Positions 49,839 to 64,000 of a DNA stretch of 64,000 bases are shown piece by piece. Within the stretch, counting starts at the first letter, position 1, and the number at the start of each line of letters is the position of its first letter. A program made the position numbers and the translations under genes. The stretch is taken from assembly GCF_013408655.1 (NCBI RefSeq), contig NZ_JACCBP010000001.1, forward strand, positions 4,340,001-4,404,000, written 5' to 3'. This DNA comes from Pigmentiphaga litoralis (GTDB lineage: Bacteria; Pseudomonadota; Gammaproteobacteria; Burkholderiales; Burkholderiaceae_B). The notes beneath the pieces were generated by a model. That model had not been told where the DNA came from, ran no database searches, and saw only the letters and a program-made list of their open reading frames with translations.

Positions 49839-50099
49839 TTCGTCGATGTATTTCTGAAGGTTGCACAGTTTCTCGGAGAGTCCTCAAGAACGTTTTCCTT
49901 GGCCTCTGATAAAAGTATGCCTCCATTTCGGTCGCAATCCGTCATAGCTGAATCTGCGTGCGATCAGCACCGCTCAGCAAGCGGCGCGTACTTCATTTGC
50001 TCCTAGCGGGCGATGATGAACGATTATTTTTGTCCTATTTCGTTCAGGACAGATTTCCCTCTCACAGTTAATCCGAGAGGGGTGTTGAGCGTAGAAGAT
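49839..50099. other. Left boundary of the defence island
   Basis: The base composition falls sharply just after ychF. Inverted repeats lie at 50032-50050 (GTCCT-N9-AGGAC) and 50057-50081 (CCCTCTC-N11-GAGAGGG), possibly the 3' end structures of the minus-strand operon, though without a T-run. No tRNA, integrase or attachment-site duplication is visible. Confidence 0.5.
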
Positions 50100-53000
50100 T
50101 CAAACAACTATTTGTTCAAATGCAAGGAGACGGCTCAAAACCTGGGCGCGCTTTTCAGGCGCCATCTCTTTAATGCGATCCACCAACGCAGAGATGTCCA
50201 GCTCGTCGAGTCTGTTTTCAATACGCGTTTTAAGCTCTACCACTTGGTCGAAGTCGTTAGCAGACACGTAAGAAGGGCAGGCGTCCATCATCGACAGTAG
50301 CTCAGTGCACCCTCGCCCCGATAACGTCGAAAGCGAGGCGACATGTTCATGCAACTGAGCGACCCATGCTGCTGACGCGACCGCTCTTTCGTGTTCCAGC
50401 GCTTGAACACGTAGAGTGTCCAGCTCTTCAAGCTTCGCAGTGACACGAGCACGGTCTGCACTCGAAAGCTCTGCAGGCAGCGAAACGAATTTTGCGGGAA
50501 CTCCCTCATTAGCAAGCTGGGCTGGCTTGCCCTGGAGGGCTGCTAGTTCTTCCACTGCTGCGACGGTCCAGACGCTAGAACGCTGCTTCGCTAGCGCATC
50601 CCGTGCTTCGATGTAGTGGGTAACACAAGTTTTTATCCATTCGTTTTCTTCGTCGAGCTCTTCATTGTCATCTGTATCCGGAGCGATTGCGACGCCAACG
50701 GCCGACGACGCATACGCTACCTCCAACAGATGCGCGACATTGTCCGCAGGGCCCGAAATCTTGTCGAACTCTGCGAGCAAGTTTACTAGGTCAGTGCAGC
50801 TTTTTCTCCGGTGTTGGATACCGTCGGCGTCACGAGTGCCTGAGAATTGCTGACCCATAAGGTTGAGACGGTGCAGTACATCAAGGGCGCTCTGGCTGGT
50901 GGCAGGTGCCATATTAAGGAGCTCAACATATACTCGTTGCCGCTCTTTCCGGAAGTCTCGTAGTTTCTCCTGCTTCTCCTGAAGTTGTGCGATTAAGGCT
51001 TTTATATCATCTGCTTTCGACAGCGTGCTAAGTGCCTCAGTCAGAAGACTAACTATTGCTTGTGCTCTTTCGATCTGGTCGCTTACCTCACGAAGCGGCA
51101 TTGACGCCGACGGATTCGGCGTTCCGATTAAATTGCTGGCGCTATCCAAAGCGGTGGTGTATTTGCAACGTTCCTGTACGTGCGCAATCATCTCCTGCGT
51201 ATGCTGCTCGACGGCGCGTGATTGATCCCTGATTCCTAAACCTTCTAGGGTTCGCTGCACGCGAATCATTTTTGCTCTGAAATCTGGTATCTGTTCCAGC
51301 GCGTTACACGCTTGCAGAGGAATCCACTTTGGCATGACTTCCCGAACCAAGGTCGCCATCTCATCGCATAATCCGTTAATTTTTGCGAGCTGCTGCTCAG
51401 ACCACTTACCCTTCTGAGCAGTCATTTCTTTACGCCTCGTTAGGTATTTCTCAGCAACAGCAACGTATTCTTGGGTTTTTTTGTGTTTGAACGCGTCTTC
51501 AAGACGGAGTTCTAGCGCCTCGAGTACGCTAGCGTAACTACGCAGCTGTTCATGGTCTGCCTCCGCCTTCTGACACAAGAATTTAAAGTTTCCTTCAAGC
51601 TGTTCGGGAAGTGGATCGTGTGAACGCATGCGTACGGCCTCATTCCAACGCTTTACGTTGCCTTCAAAAGTCGTCTCGGTCTCCCAGGTGTTCATGAGGA
51701 GCTGCCATCGGGTTATCGCGTCCTCGGTCAAGAACAGAATGGTCGTCTTCTGGAGTGCTAACTCCGACAAATACCTACTGGTAGTCCCGTACGCTGCTAC
51801 CAGCCAGTCTTTGAGAGAGATTCCGCTTCGCTGATACTGAATTGCGCGCGGTGGCACTGATTTTCCAACGAATAGTGCGATCAGCAGAGACGCCGATGCA
51901 AGGCTGCAGCCAAATGGCGGCTTGGTCAGCATCGCAAGATTATCTAACAAGGTTCGCTGCGGATCCGATTTATGGGCGTCCTCTAGGTGCTGTAAGACTG
52001 CTCGGATCTGCAGGTTTTCAGGGACTGACTTTATCTGCGCATCTCGCGAGAGGACGCCCCAAGAGGTTCCCAGAACGGCACGCACGCGGTTTTGTAACTT
52101 AACTTGTTGTACTGCCAGCCAAGCTTGCGATACTTCTCCGCCAAACAAGGCGCGCGCCAGTACCGCGACGTCAGCACTGCCAGTACCGTTGAGCGTGTTG
52201 AACCCGTCAAAGGGAAAGGGAAGAGCTTTCGGGTACACGTTTTTGAAAATCGCGCTAGCCTCGGCATTCAGCCGGCCCGGAACGACTTTAGTGCCTGCGA
52301 CAAGTGACACACGGTCTTTGATAGCATCGCGTAGTGATGTGCGGAGACCTAGCGTGGCCTGCTCGCGCTCTTCTGGAATAAAGCGTGCGTACCGCTCTTG
52401 TTCGATGTGGTCAAAGCTATCTTCCAGAACATACAGGGTCGCCAGATACTGGTGAACCCGTGCCGAACGATCGGAGAGTACAACTGTCCACACAGGCGCG
52501 GTCGTTACGCCAGATTTTTTTAATTCTCGACTGTAGACGTCCTCAATTTGCAGTTGTAATGCCGCTACGTCCGCCTCGGGGCTAGTCAGGCAGTAAAGGA
52601 TCTGACCTTTCGGCTGACTGGGTTTAACCGCCTGACGCCAGTCGTTGAACGCGTTTTGGACGCTAGCGCTAACGCGTTGATCGTTCGTGAGCTGTGCTGT
52701 AAAACTCCACTCAAGCGTGGGAACGTCGAACTCATACCCACATGTAGTCGAGATATCATTGAAGAGGTCTTCGCTCCATGCTTTTGCCCGAGTGAGGAAA
52801 ATCTCTTGGACCTCAGCCGAACCAACACGAGCAAGTTTCCCGCCTAAGTCCTTCTGATACTGCCCCCGGGTAGCCGCGTCAGTGACAATCTCATATTGCT
52901 TAAGTTCTTTGCTCCACGCGATCACACCTAACACTTGCTCAAGTCGCGTTAGATGTGATAGGCATGCGTCGATCGGTCTGCCAACGAATTCCACAAGCAG

Positions 53001-54602
53001 ACGGTTATAACTATCTTGTTCGCTCGAGATCACCCGCATTTTCTTAGTTGAGGTGATAGCAATTAGCAGGCCTCGATCGATTTCATCAATCTGAGAGTCA
53101 TATTTCGTTAGCGCAGCCATGAGATTGTCCACGCTGACACCGCCGTGAGCACGCTCTGCTGCGAGCATCTCTGTCAGCATTTCGCCCGTGAGAATCCGGC
53201 TGGCAGAAATGCTTGTCAGGTTGTTCCCTTCGATCGCAGCGCGGTCGAGGGTGGCGTCGACCGCGTTCTTGACGAAAGTAATTGCTGAGCGCGATTGGAC
53301 AATGTCTTGTTGGCGTGTCAGGAACCAAGTAGCCAGAGGGTGGAGCGGCCAACAGCCGCGGACGATCACCCGTTCAAACTCGTCGGGATCACTCCATACC
53401 GGTAGTTGTCTTAATCCTGGCAGCAGCGCCGCCATCATCTTGTGCAGAGCTTGATGGGCTGGCCGTTGTCGAGTAAGGCTCATTTCTAACGCCGCTTCGT
53501 TCTTCTTTTCAAGCAGATGCGCGATAATGGTTTCCAGATTCGATGACACATAGTACTTTTTAGCGACGTCGAAGCGGGTTATGTATTTCTGAATATGCAT
53601 AGCATCGCGGTTGCCCAATCGTGCCAGATACGCTTTCAGTTCATATTGAATGAAACCGAGGAAGTGTGCTTGCGATGCATTGTCCTGGATACCTTGGAAG
53701 ATCTGTTGTAGCGCTGAGTCGCCCGCGAGCGCGGGACGCTCAGCCACGTATTCTAGGAAGCGACCAAACTCGTCGAATAGGATAACCAAACGCGAAAACG
53801 GTCCATTCTGTGAGCAATAGGTTTCGCAAAACACAGTGATGAGATCCTGGATGGACTCGCGTCCGGAGACTGGAATATGGGCGCCATTCGCCTCCCAGTA
53901 CAGCGCATCGACAAGCGCGTAGGCGTCTTCATCTCGCGCTTCGAGCGAATCGGTAATGCTTTGCTGTGTTCGATTTGGGAACCGAGCCGCGAACTCACTG
54001 GTTCGTAGAGCGTAATTTCGCTTCACGAAGTTCGCGGCGTCATCAAAGCGCGGAGACAATTCACGCAAGGCGAAGTCCTCGATCCGATGCTCCTTAAGCG
54101 AACGGAAGAGTGATGCGCTTAACGCATTGCCTAGGTTGAAGTTTCCGGTGCCATCCAACGTAATCACGAGGGCCGGCTTCTCAATCTTTCCCAAGGCTTG
54201 GCGTGCGCTTTCAGCCGCCCTAGGTTCCGCAAGCGTAAGGTTAGACACGATGTGCTCACTGAGCACCGAGTGCGGCTCACGTAGCATACGGGCGAGTACC
54301 AACGCAAAGTGCGATTTACCTGAGCCGTAGCCTGCGATCGCGAGCGAGAACGGATTGCTGTGTGCCGCGGTGTCGTCGGCAATACGAGTAAGGAGATCGG
54401 CTATTAGCGTCGCTGTGTCAGTTAGCCGGTAGATCTCGTCGCCCTGAGCGTCCTTCTTGACTCCGTGATAGCGCGGACCGTGAAACACGAAACTTTTTGC
54501 TGCCTCGTCTGCACGCTCAATTTGGTCTTCTGCCCACAGTAACTGGACAGCACCATCAAAAAACAAGTCCGAACGAAACTGAACTAGATCGCAAACTTTC
54601 AT
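50100..54602 (-). CDS. Giant P-loop ATPase, BrxC/PglY-like, defence-associated
   Basis: A 1500-residue protein, last gene of the defence operon. It begins MKVCDLVQFRSDLFFDGAVQ and has Walker A GYGSGKSH at 91-98 and Walker B RLVILFDEFGRF at 271-282, a layout like the large ATPases of BREX (BrxC/PglY) and of DUF4007-linked phosphorothioation loci. The middle is helical, and residues ~1050-1450 are rich in Glu/Lys/Gln/Leu helices likely to form coiled coils. No nuclease motif was recognised. It starts 27 nt after the DUF4007 gene. Probably an NTP-driven sensor or motor of the anti-phage system; the precise family needs profile comparison. Confidence 0.75.
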   Translation of the reverse strand: MKVCDLVQFRSDLFFDGAVQLLWAEDQIERADEAAKSFVFHGPRYHGVKKDAQGDEIYRLTDTATLIADLLTRIADDTAAHSNPFSLAIAGYGSGKSHFALVLARMLREPHSVLSEHIVSNLTLAEPRAAESARQALGKIEKPALVITLDGTGNFNLGNALSASLFRSLKEHRIEDFALRELSPRFDDAANFVKRNYALRTSEFAARFPNRTQQSITDSLEARDEDAYALVDALYWEANGAHIPVSGRESIQDLITVFCETYCSQNGPFSRLVILFDEFGRFLEYVAERPALAGDSALQQIFQGIQDNASQAHFLGFIQYELKAYLARLGNRDAMHIQKYITRFDVAKKYYVSSNLETIIAHLLEKKNEAALEMSLTRQRPAHQALHKMMAALLPGLRQLPVWSDPDEFERVIVRGCWPLHPLATWFLTRQQDIVQSRSAITFVKNAVDATLDRAAIEGNNLTSISASRILTGEMLTEMLAAERAHGGVSVDNLMAALTKYDSQIDEIDRGLLIAITSTKKMRVISSEQDSYNRLLVEFVGRPIDACLSHLTRLEQVLGVIAWSKELKQYEIVTDAATRGQYQKDLGGKLARVGSAEVQEIFLTRAKAWSEDLFNDISTTCGYEFDVPTLEWSFTAQLTNDQRVSASVQNAFNDWRQAVKPSQPKGQILYCLTSPEADVAALQLQIEDVYSRELKKSGVTTAPVWTVVLSDRSARVHQYLATLYVLEDSFDHIEQERYARFIPEEREQATLGLRTSLRDAIKDRVSLVAGTKVVPGRLNAEASAIFKNVYPKALPFPFDGFNTLNGTGSADVAVLARALFGGEVSQAWLAVQQVKLQNRVRAVLGTSWGVLSRDAQIKSVPENLQIRAVLQHLEDAHKSDPQRTLLDNLAMLTKPPFGCSLASASLLIALFVGKSVPPRAIQYQRSGISLKDWLVAAYGTTSRYLSELALQKTTILFLTEDAITRWQLLMNTWETETTFEGNVKRWNEAVRMRSHDPLPEQLEGNFKFLCQKAEADHEQLRSYASVLEALELRLEDAFKHKKTQEYVAVAEKYLTRRKEMTAQKGKWSEQQLAKINGLCDEMATLVREVMPKWIPLQACNALEQIPDFRAKMIRVQRTLEGLGIRDQSRAVEQHTQEMIAHVQERCKYTTALDSASNLIGTPNPSASMPLREVSDQIERAQAIVSLLTEALSTLSKADDIKALIAQLQEKQEKLRDFRKERQRVYVELLNMAPATSQSALDVLHRLNLMGQQFSGTRDADGIQHRRKSCTDLVNLLAEFDKISGPADNVAHLLEVAYASSAVGVAIAPDTDDNEELDEENEWIKTCVTHYIEARDALAKQRSSVWTVAAVEELAALQGKPAQLANEGVPAKFVSLPAELSSADRARVTAKLEELDTLRVQALEHERAVASAAWVAQLHEHVASLSTLSGRGCTELLSMMDACPSYVSANDFDQVVELKTRIENRLDELDISALVDRIKEMAPEKRAQVLSRLLAFEQIVV

Positions 54603-54629
54603 GATGAACTCTTGTAGGAATTGTCGTGC

Positions 54630-55466
54630 TTACAGTAAATCACTGTAGATGTATGCAATTAGTTCGTCGCTGCTCTTGATTTTCATGATCAACGGTGCGC
54701 CGGTTTGTCGGTCGACACTTGTAATGCCTTGTGCAGTTGTCCAAGCCAGAAAATCATCGACTGCTTTATCCATCCAACCACTGCTTTCGAAAAACCTGGA
54801 GAGATTCTCTAGCTCCGAAAGGGGCAACTGTTGCATTGCGGGCGCTGTCAATTCCCAGTGGGCCAGCCATGTACATGCATATGCCCAATAGAATTCCTCG
54901 AGCATAGGTAGGGCTCCACGTAGAACAACATTTTTTTCGACAGTCAGCATGCCGGTTCGTGCGAAGCTCGCCTCCTCACGGTACGTGGTGAACAGTGGCC
55001 CGGGCAGGGATGAACTGTTGCCGAGCTCTTGTACGAGAAAGCTTGTCGCTGCCTCGACACTACTCACCCGCCCGAGTGCCAATCGCGAGCGTCCAAAAAG
55101 AACATGCCACGCGGCTGCGCCGCCAATTGGCCGTGACAACATCAGATGCAAGATGAGCTGAGTAAGTGGCTCATGTAACAACGGATCCTCGACGGCAAAC
55201 AGTCGACCTAACGGAGTGAGTTGCAGCGTGTAGACACCATTGCTGCCAGCCGACGCAGTTGTGATGCCCATCGCGTGCGCGTATTTGAGGTGTGGCAGAA
55301 CCTTCCCCGAGCTTCTTCCCGTGGGGATACCCGAGTCGGCAGAAATCGTGTCGATCGTGCCGCTGTATCCGTTCTTCGCCAGCTTCAGCAGAGCCGAAAG
55401 GTGTCGCCTATCCGGGAAAAACGTTTCGTGAAAGCTTGGGGGCAAGCCCTGGATTGTTCGTTGCAT
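54630..55466 (-). CDS. DUF4007-type protein
   Basis: A 278-residue protein opening MQRTIQGLPPSFHETFFPDR, the characteristic start of DUF4007 proteins, then a helical region that looks like a winged-helix module (TIDTISADSGIPTGRSSGKV, residues ~38-57) and a mainly helical C-terminal part. DUF4007 genes recur beside phosphosulphate-reductase-like (DndC-related) and large ATPase genes in sulphur-based defence loci; the biochemical role is not established. It lies 8 nt after dptH and 27 nt before the giant ATPase. It may be a DNA-binding specificity or regulatory subunit (inference). Confidence 0.7.
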   Translation of the reverse strand: MQRTIQGLPPSFHETFFPDRRHLSALLKLAKNGYSGTIDTISADSGIPTGRSSGKVLPHLKYAHAMGITTASAGSNGVYTLQLTPLGRLFAVEDPLLHEPLTQLILHLMLSRPIGGAAAWHVLFGRSRLALGRVSSVEAATSFLVQELGNSSSLPGPLFTTYREEASFARTGMLTVEKNVVLRGALPMLEEFYWAYACTWLAHWELTAPAMQQLPLSELENLSRFFESSGWMDKAVDDFLAWTTAQGITSVDRQTGAPLIMKIKSSDELIAYIYSDLL

Positions 55467-55474
55467 AATTTGCG

Positions 55475-58400
55475 CTATCGTGCATTTAAAGAGGTGATCT
55501 TGACTTTCACTGGCTCTCTACGCATCGGCTTTCCATCGATTATGCGATGCGGCCCGATTGCCCAACATTCCCCCTTGGCAAGCTTACTCAGCTCCGTTAT
55601 CCATTCATCCCGAGAACGACTCGTGGATAATTCTGCCAAAATCTGTGCGAATTCTTTAAGTTCGGTATCGACAGGCTTGAAGAATAACTTTTCAGTACAT
55701 TGGAACAAGCGGCTCCGCTGTTCTTTGTCGAACTGGGAGATGGTTTGCGTGGCGAGAATCATGCTAACCCCGAACTTTCGCCCTTCACGTAGGAGTTTAT
55801 CGATCGCACGATCGCTACGGTGATCGAGGTTTTGGACCTCATCGAGAACCACAGGAAGCGGCGAGTCCTTGCTGCCGTTCCGCGAGGCATAGGCAAAGAA
55901 ATCCCACAAGGCAAATTCCGTGATCAGGCGTTGCATATCCTTGGAAATATTTACCAGTTGCAGGATATGTGCTGGCAGTTCCCCACGAAAGATTTGCTTC
56001 CAACCAGAACCTTCATCGAGTGAAAATGGCCGTTGCTTAACGAACTCAGCTATTTTGACAGAGAGAGTGGCGGGCGCACTGCTGTCAGATTCTAGAGCCC
56101 CTAGCAAATCCTCGAGCCCAAACTGGATATTTGCCGACAAGCCCTGTTCTATGTGCCGAGCGAGTGCAGCGCGCTGCACCTCACCAATGGTGTAAACCGA
56201 AGCGAACACGTCGGCGACCCGGCTAGCAACATTGTGCGACTGTTCCTGCAAGTGGCCGATACCAGGCTCCTCGCGCTCGAGACGTTGGAACGGGTTGATT
56301 GGAAACGGTTTTTGTACCAGAACGTGCGTCTGTGGCTGCGCACGGTCGACAAACGTTTGGTCGAGCTTGCTTGGTAAGAACCCATCGGTGTAGTCGATGA
56401 TGGCTGCATGCTGGCGCTGTTTAATCATTTCAAGCAGCAAGCATTGGATGGCGTAGGTTTTTCCCGAACCTGAACCACCGAATATGAGCAGGTGCCGATT
56501 TTCGAGCTCTGCGTCGCCATATTCCCAGTGGACATTCTGTCCGCGGCTGTCTGTGCCAATCAGCAGACGGCAAATAGACGTTACCGGAGTCGCGCCCGAG
56601 ACGGATGCGTACGAAGAAGCGTGATCTGGGAGCGGCGGTGCTACAAAAGGCTGCTGCGTCGTGGATGCTTGAATTAGCGGCGTCTCGACCGCCACGGTGC
56701 AAACCGGCATGTCCATAGGACGCGCTGAATGCACCTTACGGAACGACGAACTTTGCTGTTCTGTGCTCAACGTTGCGCGCAGATCGGGAATTTCCGCTGC
56801 TGTAGGTTGCGCAACAATAGACGGCTCTGCGCCAATCGCTGGGATCGGCCCAATCTCCATCGCCGAAAGCTGTGCAGTTGGTACTTTCTTGGCCGGGCGT
56901 TCAGCGGAAGACAGCACAAGTGGTGTCCCCGGAATAGCGAAAGGTGCCGGAGTTTGTTCAGTCAATAGCCGAATGACGTCTTCAGTGCCGTACTGTAGTT
57001 GGTAGACACCGAACCCATTGGGAAGCGGGAGATCCATGGACACGTCGACTGGCCCCATGAACGATTGCGCCTCAAGCGTCGGCACCGTCGCCTTGCTCGT
57101 CCAGAATGTCGAAGCAACGGCACGCCAAGCGATGGTGAAATCGCCTTCGCTCAATCGATCGAGGGCACCGCACAACGCTCGATACTCATCTTGAGCGAGC
57201 ATTACCACCGCACGACTCGACAGCGCACGATGTAGCTGGGCCCACCAATATTTGCGCTCAAAGACAATTGTTCTTATCGGTGCGCCCTGAGGAGCAAAAA
57301 TTCGCACGAGTTGTCGGATACCAGAGCTTGCTTGAGCAAACGCAGTCTCCGCATGGCCAACGCTCTCATAGGCGAACTTAGATTCGATAACCGTCGCATC
57401 TATGCTTAGTCTTCCGTCTAGCACCTTGGCCGACAGGAAGAGCAGATCGGGAATATTTGGATCCTCGCGGTCGCGGAACCAGTGCCGGAAGCTATCAAGC
57501 GGAAGAAGTGCTTGCAAGATTGTTGTCGGATCTCTGCCAAGTTGGCGGCTGATCAGTGAATACCCGACTACATCACGGATGTATTCATCGCGGCCGATGG
57601 CGCGCACCAACGACAAACCTGGAATCTCGCAGGCCGCGTTGATGACGTTATGGGCCGCCAGGTTCGCCTGCTCGATGGAAAGGGCTTGTAAATGTTGCCG
57701 CAGCCGCTTGGCAATCGCTTTTGTCAGGGTCGCAAAGTCACTCACTTCTGTTGAGATAGTCTTATTTAGCTCACCGTAATTGCCCAAGCCACACGAGAAG
57801 CCTACAATCCGTCGATCTTGATTAATACTCCCAATCGTGGCAGCAGCGAGGAGATTGTTATCGACGTGTCGATCCACGCACGATACCCACACCGCTTTTC
57901 GATGCAGTAGTTCGACTGTCTTCTTCCAAGGCGTAAAGTCAATCTGCGTGACGACCTCATGCTCGGTCGAAGTTGCCGTAAACGAAATTTTAAGACGTGC
58001 TGCGATCTCGGTGTGTGCGCTCGCCATTTGCACGCGTCGATTGCTGATCGACATTTGTCGTTGGCTTTGCGCCGAGAGTTGGCGAACCGGGCGTGGATAC
58101 TCGGCTAGCGGAAACTGACGTAAGACTGAGCTAGCCACGGCATCAAACGGTTCGACTGGCTCCAGTTGGTCGCCATCGTGCTTATCGTCGAGAAAGTGCG
58201 CGATCACGCCCAAGTCAAAACGAAGGTCTTGTTCCACAAGAAGAATCTCTTCGAGTTCAGCCGGCTTTGTCGCGTGTCGATGACCGATGTGAATCGAACA
58301 CTGACGCTGCTTCGAAAAACCGCCCTCAGTCCATGCGTTTTTCCATGCGACCAGCATGTTGACGGCAGTGGTCGTCGCCACGCCTGTTGTGATCACCTTT

Positions 58401-60769
58401 AAGGTAAGGTGGAACGGGGTCGGTTGTTCTACGGTTTCCGTCAGGTAGCGATTTAGCCACTTATCAACACCGGAGAGAACGATATTGATTTCTGCGATAT
58501 TTGTGAACAGAAGACTGAGCTGGTCGTGCGAATGACTATGTAAGGATTGATAAGCGCGAATCAAATCTTCATAAATTCGTGCTCTGCCGGATGGTTGCAG
58601 CTTCTGGCTAAGATCATCATCATCGAACGTCTCTTGCCGCATCAAACTCTGCGACGCCACGGGTAAGGCTCCGCGATCAGCAATACCGATCAAGTGGGTC
58701 AGTCCGAACGCTTGTGATGCCGTCGTCAACGACAGGTTGGGGTCTGCGACTAGCGCTGCGATAGGGCGGCGCAATTCGGCAAGCTCCACCAATCGCTGCC
58801 AGCGATGCTCAGAGGTAGTAGCGTTGCCGTTGCTGAAGAGTTCTGCTACTACTTCACTAAAACCATCCCTAAGGAACACGGCCCGTGCGCTGGAAAGCTC
58901 GAGTACAAACGGCGACACTGGAAGTGCCACGGCCGCGCTCAGAAAGGGCTGGGTTGGTGTGTCCGTGCTCCGTACAGCCAAGAAGGCGCGATATAGGCAG
59001 GGCAAGACATACTCCGCCCCAGCTTGACGCTCAATCACCTGACGCACGACCTGAGAATACGCCGTTATGACGAGATGAATCTTCGAGTTGGCCGCATAGA
59101 ACCCGTCGTCAAGAATTGCCTCTAAGTGCTCTTTGTAGCGACTGGTCAGTGCCGTACAGCTCGAGATCAGCCCCGCAAAGTGCGGATGCCTGGCGACGTC
59201 GTCAAACACGTTCGCAACTCGGAACTCGTTTATCCCAAGCATCAAAAGGCGATGGGCGTCTTGTTCATCAATTGCCGAGAACAACTCATCAAAGCCACCG
59301 ATCCGAAAGGCAGGCAAGCGCGGTGCCGGCAACGCAGACAACGAACGCAATGCGAGCTCAGCCAGGACTAAACGTATGCGCTCAGGGTGGGAGGTCGGAA
59401 TCGGCCACACATATTGCTGTTCGAACGGATCGACGTCCATACTCGAATTGATCTCGACGGTGAACGAGATCTTTGCCATAGCCTTGGCATTGCGAACGAC
59501 AGGCTCGTCGAGGCCTTCAAGCGTCACTGGGATCTCTTGTTGCGCCTCGGGTAAATTCAGCCTTTCAGGGATGACCGCACCGACAATGCCATTCAGGAGT
59601 CGGTTTAGATCGCGCTCGGGATCGTGAACATCGGCTTCGTAAAGATTTATTCTTATTTTGATGTTGTCAAGGTGTTCCGCCTGATTGCCGTAACTATCGA
59701 ACCATCGTTGGATCGTAAGCTTAATCGCCTGTAAAAAAACGACGTCGCTATAGCCCTTTAATGTGGCCGTTTTGGGCTCCGCCTTGCCCTCCTTTTTCAC
59801 GCGTTTTTGAAGCAGTGTCAGCAAAGGGCGAGCGTCAGACTGGCGCAGACGAGTAAGAGCATCCTTATTGTTATCGAGTACGAAAGTACGTACGTCAGCT
59901 AGATATTCGGCCGCCGTATCGTACGGTAGTTGCCCTTCGATTACAGGATCGGGAAGCGCGAATGGTGGTATGGCGTCATCGCCCGTTTCCGCTGCTGCTA
60001 ACTTTCCTAACGTCTTGTCCCGCTCTGCTTTGGACGCGAACATCGTGTGCATTGCAAATCGATGTCCCAGGTCAATAAAGCCATGGACTTTTGCCGAGTT
60101 GCGACCTATCGGCACGTTTAGCAACGGCAGTGCCCCCCAGCTCGCCAAACTTGCATAACATTCGGCGACAACGTCGCGTAAATTGTCGGGGCGACGAGCT
60201 AATATGTCTTGGAAAAAGTTGGCGACGCGCAATAGGCGGCCCGCATTAAATTTTTCAACAGTATCCAAAAATCCCACTAGGGCATCGATGGCTGACGTGT
60301 TTTGGTCACAAAGATGCTCAGCAATACGTTCCACCCAAATGCGGTAGCGCTGCTCTAGGACGCGGCGCCATAATAAGTCTTCGCCGACAAGGTGAAAATC
60401 TTTCAAGCTTCCTTTATCAGATGCGTGGTCAAAACCAAAGAAGACGCAGTGCCCCTTGTTACGAAAGGTTGTCAACTGGTCGTCCATATCGACCCAGTTT
60501 TCTTGAATAATATTCGCTTGTACTAAGGCTGCTTTTTCTGCTGCGCTCCAGCTTTGCCAGAGACCTTTTGATATTTTTAAAGTTTTTTCTGTACCGGGAA
60601 ACTGAGTGAGGAAAAAATCGTCAACTCGTTTGAAAACGGCCAGAGTCTCAGCTAACGGCAAGCTCTGTACAACAAGCGTAACTTTATTCGAGTGGCCTGT
60701 GTCTGCGTCCAGCACGTCGGTACACTTGCCAATGAGGTAGTGCGATAATTCATCGACGAACAAATTCAC
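55475..60769 (-). CDS. dptH: DNA phosphorothioation-dependent restriction protein DptH
   Basis: A 1764-residue protein starting with GTG 60769 that overlaps the dptG stop (GTGA). The C-terminal third is a HerA/FtsK-like (DUF87-type) ATPase: Walker A GGSGSGKT at 1431-1438, IDYTDGF strand, Walker B PLPVVLDEVQN with Asp1643/Glu1644, sensor ILATQT at 1671-1676 and a late KGECWAIG. The first ~1400 residues are a large helical/beta region with no motif I recognise. Size, architecture and position after DptF and DptG match DptH, which with them degrades or damages DNA lacking phosphorothioate marks. Confidence 0.82.
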   Translation of the reverse strand: MNLFVDELSHYLIGKCTDVLDADTGHSNKVTLVVQSLPLAETLAVFKRVDDFFLTQFPGTEKTLKISKGLWQSWSAAEKAALVQANIIQENWVDMDDQLTTFRNKGHCVFFGFDHASDKGSLKDFHLVGEDLLWRRVLEQRYRIWVERIAEHLCDQNTSAIDALVGFLDTVEKFNAGRLLRVANFFQDILARRPDNLRDVVAECYASLASWGALPLLNVPIGRNSAKVHGFIDLGHRFAMHTMFASKAERDKTLGKLAAAETGDDAIPPFALPDPVIEGQLPYDTAAEYLADVRTFVLDNNKDALTRLRQSDARPLLTLLQKRVKKEGKAEPKTATLKGYSDVVFLQAIKLTIQRWFDSYGNQAEHLDNIKIRINLYEADVHDPERDLNRLLNGIVGAVIPERLNLPEAQQEIPVTLEGLDEPVVRNAKAMAKISFTVEINSSMDVDPFEQQYVWPIPTSHPERIRLVLAELALRSLSALPAPRLPAFRIGGFDELFSAIDEQDAHRLLMLGINEFRVANVFDDVARHPHFAGLISSCTALTSRYKEHLEAILDDGFYAANSKIHLVITAYSQVVRQVIERQAGAEYVLPCLYRAFLAVRSTDTPTQPFLSAAVALPVSPFVLELSSARAVFLRDGFSEVVAELFSNGNATTSEHRWQRLVELAELRRPIAALVADPNLSLTTASQAFGLTHLIGIADRGALPVASQSLMRQETFDDDDLSQKLQPSGRARIYEDLIRAYQSLHSHSHDQLSLLFTNIAEINIVLSGVDKWLNRYLTETVEQPTPFHLTLKVITTGVATTTAVNMLVAWKNAWTEGGFSKQRQCSIHIGHRHATKPAELEEILLVEQDLRFDLGVIAHFLDDKHDGDQLEPVEPFDAVASSVLRQFPLAEYPRPVRQLSAQSQRQMSISNRRVQMASAHTEIAARLKISFTATSTEHEVVTQIDFTPWKKTVELLHRKAVWVSCVDRHVDNNLLAAATIGSINQDRRIVGFSCGLGNYGELNKTISTEVSDFATLTKAIAKRLRQHLQALSIEQANLAAHNVINAACEIPGLSLVRAIGRDEYIRDVVGYSLISRQLGRDPTTILQALLPLDSFRHWFRDREDPNIPDLLFLSAKVLDGRLSIDATVIESKFAYESVGHAETAFAQASSGIRQLVRIFAPQGAPIRTIVFERKYWWAQLHRALSSRAVVMLAQDEYRALCGALDRLSEGDFTIAWRAVASTFWTSKATVPTLEAQSFMGPVDVSMDLPLPNGFGVYQLQYGTEDVIRLLTEQTPAPFAIPGTPLVLSSAERPAKKVPTAQLSAMEIGPIPAIGAEPSIVAQPTAAEIPDLRATLSTEQQSSSFRKVHSARPMDMPVCTVAVETPLIQASTTQQPFVAPPLPDHASSYASVSGATPVTSICRLLIGTDSRGQNVHWEYGDAELENRHLLIFGGSGSGKTYAIQCLLLEMIKQRQHAAIIDYTDGFLPSKLDQTFVDRAQPQTHVLVQKPFPINPFQRLEREEPGIGHLQEQSHNVASRVADVFASVYTIGEVQRAALARHIEQGLSANIQFGLEDLLGALESDSSAPATLSVKIAEFVKQRPFSLDEGSGWKQIFRGELPAHILQLVNISKDMQRLITEFALWDFFAYASRNGSKDSPLPVVLDEVQNLDHRSDRAIDKLLREGRKFGVSMILATQTISQFDKEQRSRLFQCTEKLFFKPVDTELKEFAQILAELSTSRSRDEWITELSKLAKGECWAIGPHRIIDGKPMRREPVKVKITSLNAR

Positions 60770-62400
60770 TTTTTCGCCTCGTAGGGATTAAGTACAAGCG
60801 CTACGGCATCCGAAAGCGGGATCAGGTAACCACCACGACGCAACTCTTCTTCAAACCAGGAAGAATCGATACCGAAGGCGTCTGATGCGTGTTGCGTCCG
60901 AGAGCTTGCTAACGCGAGCTGTATCAGGTCCTGATTAATAGCTAAACCGAAATGGGCGTAGGCTCGCTCGTAGAACTTGTCGAGTTGGATTCTTGTTCCT
61001 GGTGGCACCAACGCAGCAACCAGCAAACGCACCATGGGTGGCGGCAACGTAATACGCATCCCGGAGCCGTTCCGAGGGACAATAACGCCGACTTGCTTGC
61101 CGATCTTGCGAAACAAACGCAGCACGTTGTCATCGCCGCGGTTCAGCCAGCCTTCGCGCGTGGCGGCTACTTCCCCTTCAACGCCAGTGTCGTAGTCATC
61201 AAAAGCGCGAAGCGATTCGTAAAGCAAATTTTCGATTTCAGCATAGGCATTGACCGCGATCTTCTTTGTATTATCACCAGCTTGGTCGCCTGACGGACTC
61301 ACAATCCAAGCGTAGTTTCCAACGAATGGTTTGGTACCCGAAGAACCTGTAACGCGTGCGCTTTGGAAGCACAAGGTTCGCATAACGTGCAGGACGCAGA
61401 GATCCTTCAGCAGTGAAATTTTTTGCAAACCGCTGCGTTGTGCACTACAGATGTTATCGATCTCCCAGCCAAATAAGGATGCTTCCGTCGCCGTTTCAAT
61501 GGGCACCCACCCTAGGGCCGCTGGCAATCTCTTACCTTCACTTGTTATGCCGGCGGCGGCAAACGTCTGATCTACAAATTCCCCAAGTGGTCCGATTGCT
61601 TGTTCGCTCTCACGCAATACTTGCTGAAGGCCCGATTGCAGTCTCCCGCGCAAAGTCTCGAGATCTGCAATACTGCGTAAGTGGGTGTAGCAAGCTGCAC
61701 CTTCGCCGAATGAAAACAAGGTGTGTAGCCCCCCCAGACCCTCTTGAGTGTTGAACAGACTGGCGAGTTGCAAGTAAAGTAGCTCTCCGCCGCGGGCCAT
61801 GAAACTATGTGCGCTGGTGTCGAAATAGTGGCCATCGACCGCTTCATCCCAGGTCAAACCGGGGGTCTTCGCAGCACCTTTAGTGCCACCATGTTTCCAA
61901 AGGGTTTCACGCGCCAATAATGTTTCGGAGGCCGGCAAGAAAGTATGCGCAGTCCACGTGCGATCACCGGCCACGCCAACGAATCCGGAAAATACGCCTT
62001 GTATTAGTCGGACAGCGTCATTGCCGCTAATTTTCGATCCGGAATTGATGCGCTGCTCTAGCTCTTCAATGCCCACTTTGAAGGAATTGATATGACTCTG
62101 GTGGCGAGTTTCAAGCTTGGATGCACCCAGGAAAGAAAATAATTTGAGTGCAAGGCGACAGCGCGGGTGGTAGGACAGCTTGCTGGGCGCAGATCCATAC
62201 AAGGGAAACGCGTACGCATTCCCTTCGTTGTCATCTTTCGGGGCGGCAAAGACCAACAGAAATTCAGCTAGGTATTCAACCGGTGTTTGGTCCCGATGAA
62301 ATCGACGGCCAAAAACTTGAATGGCTGGGTTATCGTCCTCTATGGAGACCGATTTAATTCGTGACTTTGCCGAGAGACTAGAATTTGGGAATCGCGGCAT
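60766..62400 (-). CDS. dptG: DNA phosphorothioation-dependent restriction protein DptG
   Basis: A 544-residue protein of the DptG type, opening MPRFPNSSLSAKSRIKSVSI with no enzymatic motif; AAALVPPGTRIQLDKFYERA and a C-terminal WFEEELRRGGYLIPLSDAV are the more conserved-looking parts. It starts 2 nt after the dptF stop and ends inside the dptH start codon region. DptG bridges DptF and DptH in the restriction complex; the identification relies on gene order, length and overall pattern. Confidence 0.75.
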   Translation of the reverse strand: MPRFPNSSLSAKSRIKSVSIEDDNPAIQVFGRRFHRDQTPVEYLAEFLLVFAAPKDDNEGNAYAFPLYGSAPSKLSYHPRCRLALKLFSFLGASKLETRHQSHINSFKVGIEELEQRINSGSKISGNDAVRLIQGVFSGFVGVAGDRTWTAHTFLPASETLLARETLWKHGGTKGAAKTPGLTWDEAVDGHYFDTSAHSFMARGGELLYLQLASLFNTQEGLGGLHTLFSFGEGAACYTHLRSIADLETLRGRLQSGLQQVLRESEQAIGPLGEFVDQTFAAAGITSEGKRLPAALGWVPIETATEASLFGWEIDNICSAQRSGLQKISLLKDLCVLHVMRTLCFQSARVTGSSGTKPFVGNYAWIVSPSGDQAGDNTKKIAVNAYAEIENLLYESLRAFDDYDTGVEGEVAATREGWLNRGDDNVLRLFRKIGKQVGVIVPRNGSGMRITLPPPMVRLLVAALVPPGTRIQLDKFYERAYAHFGLAINQDLIQLALASSRTQHASDAFGIDSSWFEEELRRGGYLIPLSDAVALVLNPYEAKK

Positions 62401-62402
62401 GC

Positions 62403-64000
62403 TTAATAAATTTCCATTGTAGATTTATCAATCGCTACGCGATATACATTTTGCTCGCCGGTTATACTAATACTTAGTAGACGAAGGTCATCTTCCGGAA
62501 GCCGTTTGCAAGCGACGAGCTGAGAACAAAACAGGTCAAGTTGATTAATATGGATCGGATCGAGGTCTTGCCCGAAGTCGCCTGTGCTGCGATGGCTTAC
62601 GAAGTCGAGTAAGGGCAAGGGCAGTTTCATAAAGACTGCGCCGTTGGCAGGAGAATATACTAGGCGCGGCATTTTTTCTGAATCGTTGAACTCCATACGG
62701 AAATCGTTTTCATCGTATTCACCAATGACAACTTGAACCGGTTGCGTAGTCTCCATGTCGTCTCGGCGAAGCGTGATATATAGCTTGTCCTTGATGCTGG
62801 CGGTGCGTACGGCGCCAATGCAATGTTCGCTTAGCACCGACAGTATTTGACGAACCAATGCCCGGCGCTCGCTAATGGACGTATGCTGGAACCCGCTAAC
62901 ATGCCATTTCTCCCAAGCTTCTAAAACAGGCGAACCGCTGAAATCTTGAGTGAAACTTTCCCACCATCGACTATCCAACCGGGTACCAAACATGAAGGCT
63001 AGACGGCGAATCGCACTACGAGCCGTTCCGCCATGAATCCCATCGGCCGATTTGCTTTGCCAATACAGAAGTGGAGGGTGCACTACCTCAGGAACCGGTG
63101 CGAAGCTGTTTAATGGTTCATGTTGAAGCTTGAGCTCAACAGCCGGACGGGTGCGTTCCGAGGTGACATGGGCATTTAGTTGCTCGACGCAATACAGGCT
63201 ACTAGTCTGCAAACTGCGTTGGCGATCCGAGAACCCAAAAAAGAGTTCGCTGAACAGATGTTGTCGTAAAGTAGGGTCGACACCGTGTTGGTCAATCTTG
63301 TCTGCCACCTCTGCGCATCCTGCTCCGCCTGTGATGCTGTACGCAAGGTGGGCCGTCATTTGCCGCATCGTCAACCGTCGCTCATAGGCGGTCAGCAGAC
63401 GATACATGGATGACACACGCTGTTTCAGTTGCGGCGCCTGTTGAATCGCGCACACGTTTTTGCGGATGGGGCATACGCTTTGCAAGCAGCAGGCGTCACA
63501 TTCCTGCCAAGATGAATGGTTCGAAATCTTCGTTAACACGTTGACTGCGGTCTCGACATTATCGAGTTTGCTCAAGTTCGCAATATAAATCGGCTTCTCG
63601 AAATTGCTGATGCAATGGGCCGAGTCATTGAGCGTGCCGACGATAGGCCGGTCGAGCAGGTTCAACACTTCTTGCTCAATTTCCTCGTTGGCATTTCGCA
63701 TCCTGCTCAAGGTATTGAGGAGGGGGCCTGTATTGCTAACTATCAGCCAACTACCACTGCCGGCAACTGACGCTTCCTTGAATTTAGCGAGACGCTCGTC
63801 GGCGGTGTGCTCGCTCATGTCCTTTAAAATTGAGACGCGCAGGCCGTCGATGTTTTCGACTTCGTACGGCTTCGGCGGGCTTGAAAGCGTTTCTTCCGAC
63901 GTCATGCGACGCAGTTGCTTAAGCACCTCTAGTGCTACGGTCGACTTACCATCGCCAGCGTGGCCTGAAAGGACAATGACGACCTCTTTGCCACTGGTGA
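62403..64000 (-). CDS. dptF: DNA phosphorothioation-dependent restriction protein DptF (5' end beyond window)
   Basis: An incomplete frame of at least 531 residues. The Walker A motif GHAGDGKST (63965-63939) lies right at the window edge and upstream residues are missing. A GTG at 63926 is after the P-loop and cannot be the true start. A cysteine cluster, ECDACCLQSVCPIRKNVC (C-x2-C-C-x4-C-x6-C, coded around 63450-63505), could bind metal or an Fe-S cluster. The C-terminal half is a mixed fold without known motifs. DptF is the P-loop component of the DptFGH restriction module. First gene of this minus-strand operon within view. Confidence 0.78.
   Translation of the reverse strand, partial: TSGKEVVIVLSGHAGDGKSTVALEVLKQLRRMTSEETLSSPPKPYEVENIDGLRVSILKDMSEHTADERLAKFKEASVAGSGSWLIVSNTGPLLNTLSRMRNANEEIEQEVLNLLDRPIVGTLNDSAHCISNFEKPIYIANLSKLDNVETAVNVLTKISNHSSWQECDACCLQSVCPIRKNVCAIQQAPQLKQRVSSMYRLLTAYERRLTMRQMTAHLAYSITGGAGCAEVADKIDQHGVDPTLRQHLFSELFFGFSDRQRSLQTSSLYCVEQLNAHVTSERTRPAVELKLQHEPLNSFAPVPEVVHPPLLYWQSKSADGIHGGTARSAIRRLAFMFGTRLDSRWWESFTQDFSGSPVLEAWEKWHVSGFQHTSISERRALVRQILSVLSEHCIGAVRTASIKDKLYITLRRDDMETTQPVQVVIGEYDENDFRMEFNDSEKMPRLVYSPANGAVFMKLPLPLLDFVSHRSTGDFGQDLDPIHINQLDLFCSQLVACKRLPEDDLRLLSISITGEQNVYRVAIDKSTMEIY

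Follow-up and report, generated by a model that had tools for sequence, protein, structure and literature searches.

A putative SspBCD-SspFGH-type phosphorothioation restriction-modification locus with an extended restriction arm in Pigmentiphaga litoralis

Genes of the cassette and of the adjacent writer

A stretch of 64,000 nucleotides from Pigmentiphaga litoralis (contig NZ_JACCBP010000001.1, positions 4340001-4404000; hereafter the window) was analyzed. Up to its right edge it carries five open reading frames on the minus strand, named F, G, H, B2 and C2, which together with three genes beyond that edge are taken for a phosphorothioation (PT) restriction-modification locus. The recomputed spacings (F-G, 2 nt; G-H, a 4-nt overlap; H-B2, 8 nt; B2-C2, 27 nt) were identical to those of an earlier sequence-only reading of the window, which had described a PT-linked module of three genes sharing an operon with a DUF4007 gene and a giant ATPase gene. 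This outline was borne out, the added pair being of the SspB/DUF4007 type and the SspC/BrxC type, but the name DptFGH given to the three genes was not. They are SspFGH-type instead, since PADLOC assigned the window part of F and the whole of G to SspF and SspG models exclusively, and no NCBIfam Dpt model was matched by the cassette proteins.

F (62403..64000, minus strand) is SspF-type and is cut by the window edge, so that only its C-terminal part lies within; the complete open reading frame was seen in the genome, runs from 62403 to the window-equivalent position 66488 and encodes 1361 aa. Its SspF core occupies residues 783-1088 (PADLOC SspF, 8.6e-27) and contains a Walker A motif, GHAGDGKST (63939..63965, minus strand), which begins at residue 842; residues 842-850 were invariant in the 20 F proteins of alignment A5. 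DndF and DptF models gave no match to the window part in PADLOC or NCBIfam, and none was among the best 25 of the 35 PADLOC matches of full-length F. G (60766..62400, minus strand; 544 aa) is a divergent SspG (PADLOC SspG, 8.2e-17), aligned with a canonical-type SspG by hhalign over 430 columns (prob 98.1) and matched no DndG or DptG model in PADLOC or NCBIfam. H (55475..60769, minus strand; 1764 aa) is a divergent SspH/DndH in which a nuclease is joined to a HerA/FtsK translocase (PADLOC DndH, 9.5e-54; SspH, 3.4e-20). Its alignment with the matching canonical-type SspH (hhalign prob 96.1, 229 columns) contains the PD-(D/E)xK motif, D1108...E1129-x-K1131 (57377..57448, minus strand), which is kept in 17/17 of the cassette H proteins aligned (alignment A3), and a fold search with the region of the nuclease lent weak support. 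The HerA Walker A motif, GGSGSGKT (56456..56479, minus strand), has G1431, G1434, G1436, K1437 and T1438 invariant in the same alignment, and the C-terminal ATPase matched the DptH structure 7es4 by profile (7.4e-12). F, G and H are thus homologues, in that order, of SspF, SspG and SspH, and form a divergent member of that family by PADLOC and hhalign.

The writer genes, as well as the NERD-kinase fusion on F, lay outside the stretch seen by the sequence-only reading. On the opposite strand, divergently oriented and 1.4 kb beyond F, three genes of 311, 1101 and 279 aa overlap their neighbors by 8 nt each. By their PADLOC matches (SspB, 3.5e-109; SspC, E=0; SspD, 1.6e-136) they are a clear SspB, SspC and SspD writer set, and the locus holds one sspD. 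Modification genes, which the sequence-only reading proposed to look for beyond position 64000, do adjoin F, but they are SspBCD and not Dnd: the best DndC-model match in the genome reached 22 bits (cut-off, 290.4), and it falls inside sspD. A classical Dnd/Dpt restriction module, which the matches of H to DndH and to 7es4 would fit, is already contradicted by this writer and by the SspF and SspG assignments, and has hardly any credibility left. Additionally, one full match to the cysteine desulfurase SspA/IscS was found elsewhere in the genome (6.9e-178); since the model also matched 14/14 control genomes, this is weak evidence and shows only that a desulfurase is present.

B2 (54630..55466, minus strand; 278 aa) has the SspB fold, of the DUF4007 type, and is a second SspB. 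The DUF4007 label of the sequence-only reading applies to some of its relatives rather than to B2 itself, as the domain was found in 9/78 B2 homologues, the closest at 38% identity, while Pfam DUF4007 gave no match in the window's own protein. C2 (50100..54602, minus strand; 1500 aa) is an AAA+-type, SspC/BrxC-like ATPase, about 400 aa longer than SspC. The BrxC profile suggested by that reading did match C2 in PADLOC, but weakly (8.1e-5); SspC was stronger (4e-19), and hhalign aligned C2 with SspC over 687 columns (prob 99.1). In the 20 rows of alignment A1 its variant Walker A motif, AGYGSGKS (54312..54335, minus strand), has A90, G91, Y92, G93, G95, K96 and S97 invariant, as are D277 and E278 of the Walker B motif, LVILFDEFGR (53760..53789, minus strand). 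Since both proteins are homologous to writer subunits, and since PglZ (PF08665) had no match in the genome with a model that matched 2/14 controls, B2-C2 is, as judged from homology, paralogous to the SspB-SspC of the writer and not the borrowed BREX-like arm that had been proposed. The locus is very probably an SspBCD writer with an FGH-type module and a paralogous SspB-SspC pair.

The front part of F consists of a NERD domain, a pseudokinase and a kinase, with Pfam matches to NERD and kinase domains. Full-length F matched PglW in PADLOC (2.4e-46). In NCBIfam, residues 13-604 matched MAD6 (281 bits; model positions 7-609 of 612), below the cut-off of 460, and PglW was matched by the front half only (residues 14-661; 153 bits), below the cut-off of 990. 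In 5/5 intact F proteins of this kinase type the D...ELK motif of NERD was kept, HRN replaced HRD in the first kinase, and HND and DFG were kept in the second. The first kinase is probably inactive because of this replacement. The fusion is not new, since NERD with an inactive and an active kinase has been described on a subset of DndF proteins in the part of PMC10853773 that was consulted. In two other loci (L122:7340-18058 and L121:9813-19319) a HerA-type protein stands next to a MAD6-like kinase that matches the F core weakly, and L122 has a MAD7-like protein in addition. These are MADS-like relatives of FGH, which suggests that MADS and FGH may share a restriction core.

The cassette lies in a low-GC block which spans about 50,000 to the window-equivalent position of about 73,000 (50-60% GC, surroundings 62-66%); in the window, 50000..64000 has a GC of 0.51-0.55, against 0.62-0.66 on the left and 0.64-0.66 on the right. 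C2 was present in 1/250 genomes of the family, that of P. litoralis alone, and its closest named protein match is in Massilia sp. Root1485 (79% identity). These three features together point to a horizontally acquired island.

Distribution and linkage of the cassette

One genome per species was scanned with two C2 peptide patterns, and the 45 loci obtained are therefore a lower bound. Most belong to genera which we take to be gammaproteobacteria. Caballeronia, a beta-proteobacterial metagenome-assembled genome (MAG), Desulfuromusa and Syntrophomonas were also among the carriers, together with MAGs labelled Rhodopirellula, Bradymonadales, Lentisphaeria, Bacillota and Acidobacteria, labels that may be wrong; the Rhodopirellula-labelled genes are almost those of Marinobacter. 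B2 precedes C2 in 39/45 loci and H lies upstream in 37/45. All five genes, in the order F-G-H-B2-C2, were found in 25/45, so the co-occurrence is not limited to one strain, and because the same order recurs in related loci the arrangement is more than chance. In 15 of the 20 loci without the full five, the contig stops within 10 kb on the upstream side of C2; the five where it does not are L042, L043, L045, L048 and L049.

Linkage to the writer was also observed. Among the 25 full cassettes, sspD was present on the locus DNA in 23 and complete sspBCD in 21, and in many gammaproteobacteria sspB-C-D-F-G-H-B2-C2 form a single same-strand run. Genome-wide, an SspD match at 1e-60 or better was obtained in 31/45 C2 genomes; a looser tally of 36/45 sits at the limit where 7/14 controls also match. 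Where about 10 kb of sequence was available upstream of C2, H was found there in 26/30 loci, the exceptions being two C2 remnants (L048, L049), a fragment locus (L042) and L045. The pair therefore travels with the nuclease. This bears on the possibility that B2-C2 is a second writer pair, sharing SspD and directing sulfur to a second DNA motif, as the homology of both proteins to writer subunits and the single sspD would allow. Given the link to H, the extra length of C2 relative to SspC, and two loci (L006 and L040) that keep the cassette with no sspBCD seen, such a role is unlikely.

In the class, sspD was detected at 1e-50 in 10/369 genomes and in 0/14 controls. The effectors found in these ten genomes were C2 in two, F-G-H without C2 in one, canonical-type SspFGH in two, SspE in one, a BREX-4-like set in one, and a PbeA-like helicase with an MzaB-like protein in one; no effector was recognised in the remaining two, one of which (G271) was checked with cassette profiles only.

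Several neighboring genes and related loci were recorded as well. A recurrent neighbor of 850-900 aa was suspected to be part of the system, but it corresponds to TIGR04096, a known PT-associated putative methyltransferase (3 scanned of 23 clustered, 22 of these belonging to the 45 loci and the other to G350). It frequently adjoins the cassette, e.g., at L008:14496-17048 and L005:20132-22705. The model matched neither the P. litoralis genome nor the controls, so that absence from the former is not shown. In genome G350 (L120:6085-18863), sspC-sspD-F-G-H are followed directly by this gene, in the place of B2-C2. In the Thiocapsa loci L014, L027 and L043, BrxC/D-family ATPases and a DEAD-box helicase, which resemble BREX type 2 accessory genes, are inserted between H and B2 (scanned in L043; homologues clustered in L014 and L027). 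Genes of the size of F and G, unmatched by the cassette profiles, stand beside a weak SspC match in Thiocapsa marina (L115:7493-14129) and Thiocystis minor (L116:1416-9692), possibly a further divergent subtype. In genome G186 (L136:10607-18069), the genes after sspBCD encode a protein of 785 aa, whose JetC-like match is weak, and two large proteins that were not recognised; these might form another PT effector set.

Sulfur-binding domains and the role of the second pair

A profile of the F N-terminal domain identified 13 related loci in which F begins with a sulfur-binding domain (SBD), a type of domain known to read phosphorothioated DNA; C2 is absent from one of these loci (G350). In an alignment of 12 of these proteins, of about 780 aa (A8; the broken gene of L114 was left out), this domain matched the ScoMcrA SBD structure 5zmo (5e-12), and also the HNH-type entries 7ccd, 7cc9 and 7ccj (about 1e-6). 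The pocket residues of ScoMcrA are given in the consulted part of PMC6224610, where R117 is mostly lysine in homologues. In the 12 F proteins, the equivalent of R117 was lysine in 12/12, Y164 was present in 12/12, P165 in 11/12 and H116 in 9/12, and the position of A168 held R or K in 12/12. The gene sspD lies directly upstream of SBD-type F on the same strand in 13/13 loci, within 6 nt or overlapping in 12; this link is not exclusive, as in L109 and L113 sspD is directly upstream of an F, or of the kinase part of one, lacking the SBD. The 25 full cassettes comprise 12 F genes of the SBD type, 5 of the NERD-kinase type (split in one) and 8 of neither. SBD-F fusions may already be within the data of PMC10853773, since winged helix-turn-helix (wHTH) domains are listed there on DndF and the SBD is equated with wHTH; a statement that F reads sulfur was not found in the consulted passages.

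Quick trees, computed with no bootstrap, were built from 24 chosen rows for C2 and H and 23 for SspC: the window, 21 of the 45 loci, and two more (C2, H) or one canonical protein (SspC). The trees of C2 and of H both divide into the same groups, three in number, with kinase-F, SBD-F and F without extension. Two rows lie outside their groups, namely Thiodiazotropha, which has no extension, and Marichromatium, which has the SBD; the Rhodopirellula row, whose F is short, groups with kinase-F. In the SspC tree the SspC of a canonical three-gene system falls inside the window's group (100% SH-aLRT), and writer and restriction arm have therefore probably been re-paired at least once.

Genome G294 carries a BREX-4-like locus (L139:2050-8085 and L141:16373-19998) with sspB-C and a short sspD, the sspD side being interrupted by two unrelated genes, one putatively transposase-like. 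After sspB-C-D come a fusion of an SBD (NF045808, 88.6 bits, under the cut-off of 180) with an SspB domain (2.9e-18), then a second ATPase of the SspC/BrxC-like kind, a PglZ-like protein and BrxL. By analogy, this second SspB-SspC with a sulfur reader beside an effector is the strongest hint that B2-C2 may serve the restriction arm. The same locus, by pairing a similar B2-C2 with PglZ and BrxL, could also speak for a two-tier hybrid, in which FGH would be combined with an independent BREX-like arm, as could the weak BrxC match of C2, the PglW-like front half of F and the Thiocapsa inserts. Such a hybrid is quite improbable, as PglZ had no match in the P. litoralis genome and the pair is tied to H in all but four of the 30 loci mentioned above.

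The preferred reading, held overall as somewhat more likely than not, is that of a horizontally acquired SspBCD-SspFGH-type locus for PT restriction-modification, in which the restriction arm is extended to F-G-H-SspB2-SspC2. SspB, SspC and SspD, with sulfur from a host IscS-like desulfurase, would place single-strand PT marks on the host DNA. SspB2, with the DNA-binding SspB fold, and the AAA+-type ATPase SspC2 would duplicate the scanning pair of the writer and be dedicated to the restriction arm. They would check DNA for the target and would load or license the FGH nuclease wherever no PT mark is present, sparing marked DNA. H would then translocate on the DNA through its HerA domain and damage it with its PD-(D/E)xK domain, and the NERD-kinase-kinase part of F may be a further effector or regulator. 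As described in the consulted part of PMC8092258, DNA without PT is damaged by SspFGH, which is toxic to a host that SspBCD has not marked; by analogy, the simplest reading is that the cassette would do the same. While the anatomy of the locus is firm, the reader role of the pair is one that we infer, and the odds that B2-C2 scans and loads for the restriction arm are about even.

Several observations weigh against this scheme. Canonical SspFGH operates with SspBCD and without any B2-C2, according to the same part of PMC8092258, and the pair is therefore not needed for reading in general; two such canonical loci were seen in the survey, and G350 carries sspCD-F-G-H with no C2. The F of the window lacks the SBD, and its own genome gave 0/1 for the sulfur-binding model NF045808. 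Moreover, two full cassettes, in the Desulfuromusa and Bradymonadales MAGs, have neither sspBCD on the locus DNA nor a good genomic SspD match, the fragmented genome G161, one of 3 class genomes with C2, had no sspD match, and in L045 C2 occurs with no B2 or H nearby. The pair might otherwise restrain FGH, by holding the nuclease off marked self DNA or sequestering it until infection. The toxicity of SspFGH to PT-lacking cells would call for restraint, and B2 and C2 are directly downstream of H, but canonical three-gene systems manage without them, and we consider this role improbable.

Relation to known systems and significance

The closest described system is SspABCD-SspFGH of Vibrio anguillarum FF-93 (PMC8092258, consulted in part), which likewise has an SspBCD writer beside a P-loop F, a G and an H with an FtsK/HerA-like C-terminus; G aligned with a canonical-type locus along most of its sequence, and H within the nuclease region. 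However, with the cassette profiles canonical F, G and H score only 90, 70 and 44 bits, and the cassette adds SspB2-SspC2 and the NERD-kinase-kinase part of F. DndFGH/DptFGH (PMC10853773) share the P-loop F and an H with a HerA/FtsK ATPase and a restriction-endonuclease domain, whereas the writer here is Ssp; DUF4007, BrxC and SspFGH were not found in the main text of that source, as consulted. According to the part of PMC12839542 consulted, BREX type 4 and BRC contain a BrxC/SspC + DUF4007/SspB pair, which BRC joins to a HerA translocase, but both have PglZ, and BRC lists no SspD writer among its seven components. PglW of BREX type 2 and MAD6 of MADS share NERD with two kinase domains, fused to an SspF core in P. 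litoralis. In the open-access literature, covered mostly at listing level and otherwise by passages of main text, SspFGH was not found described together with a second SspB-SspC pair.

Tentatively, and with more doubt than belief, two paralogous scanning machines may be envisaged: SspB1-SspC1 would write with SspD, and SspB2-SspC2, with or without a partner SBD, would read and load the nuclease. The pair would be portable between effectors (FGH here, PglZ/BrxL in G294), which would explain part of the seemingly partnerless sspBCD loci. In the consulted part of PMC8092258, 2,211/2,678 sspBCD loci are without a known restriction partner, the reason being left open. Part of them may be accounted for by a conserved, divergent FGH cassette like this one, which simple searches with the sequences of the known proteins could overlook. 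With an SBD fused to F, and in one case to a second SspB, PT sensing by FGH-type nucleases becomes testable through point mutations of the known pocket. Finally, the duplicated SspB-SspC would tie PT restriction to BREX, where a homologous pair works with PglZ.

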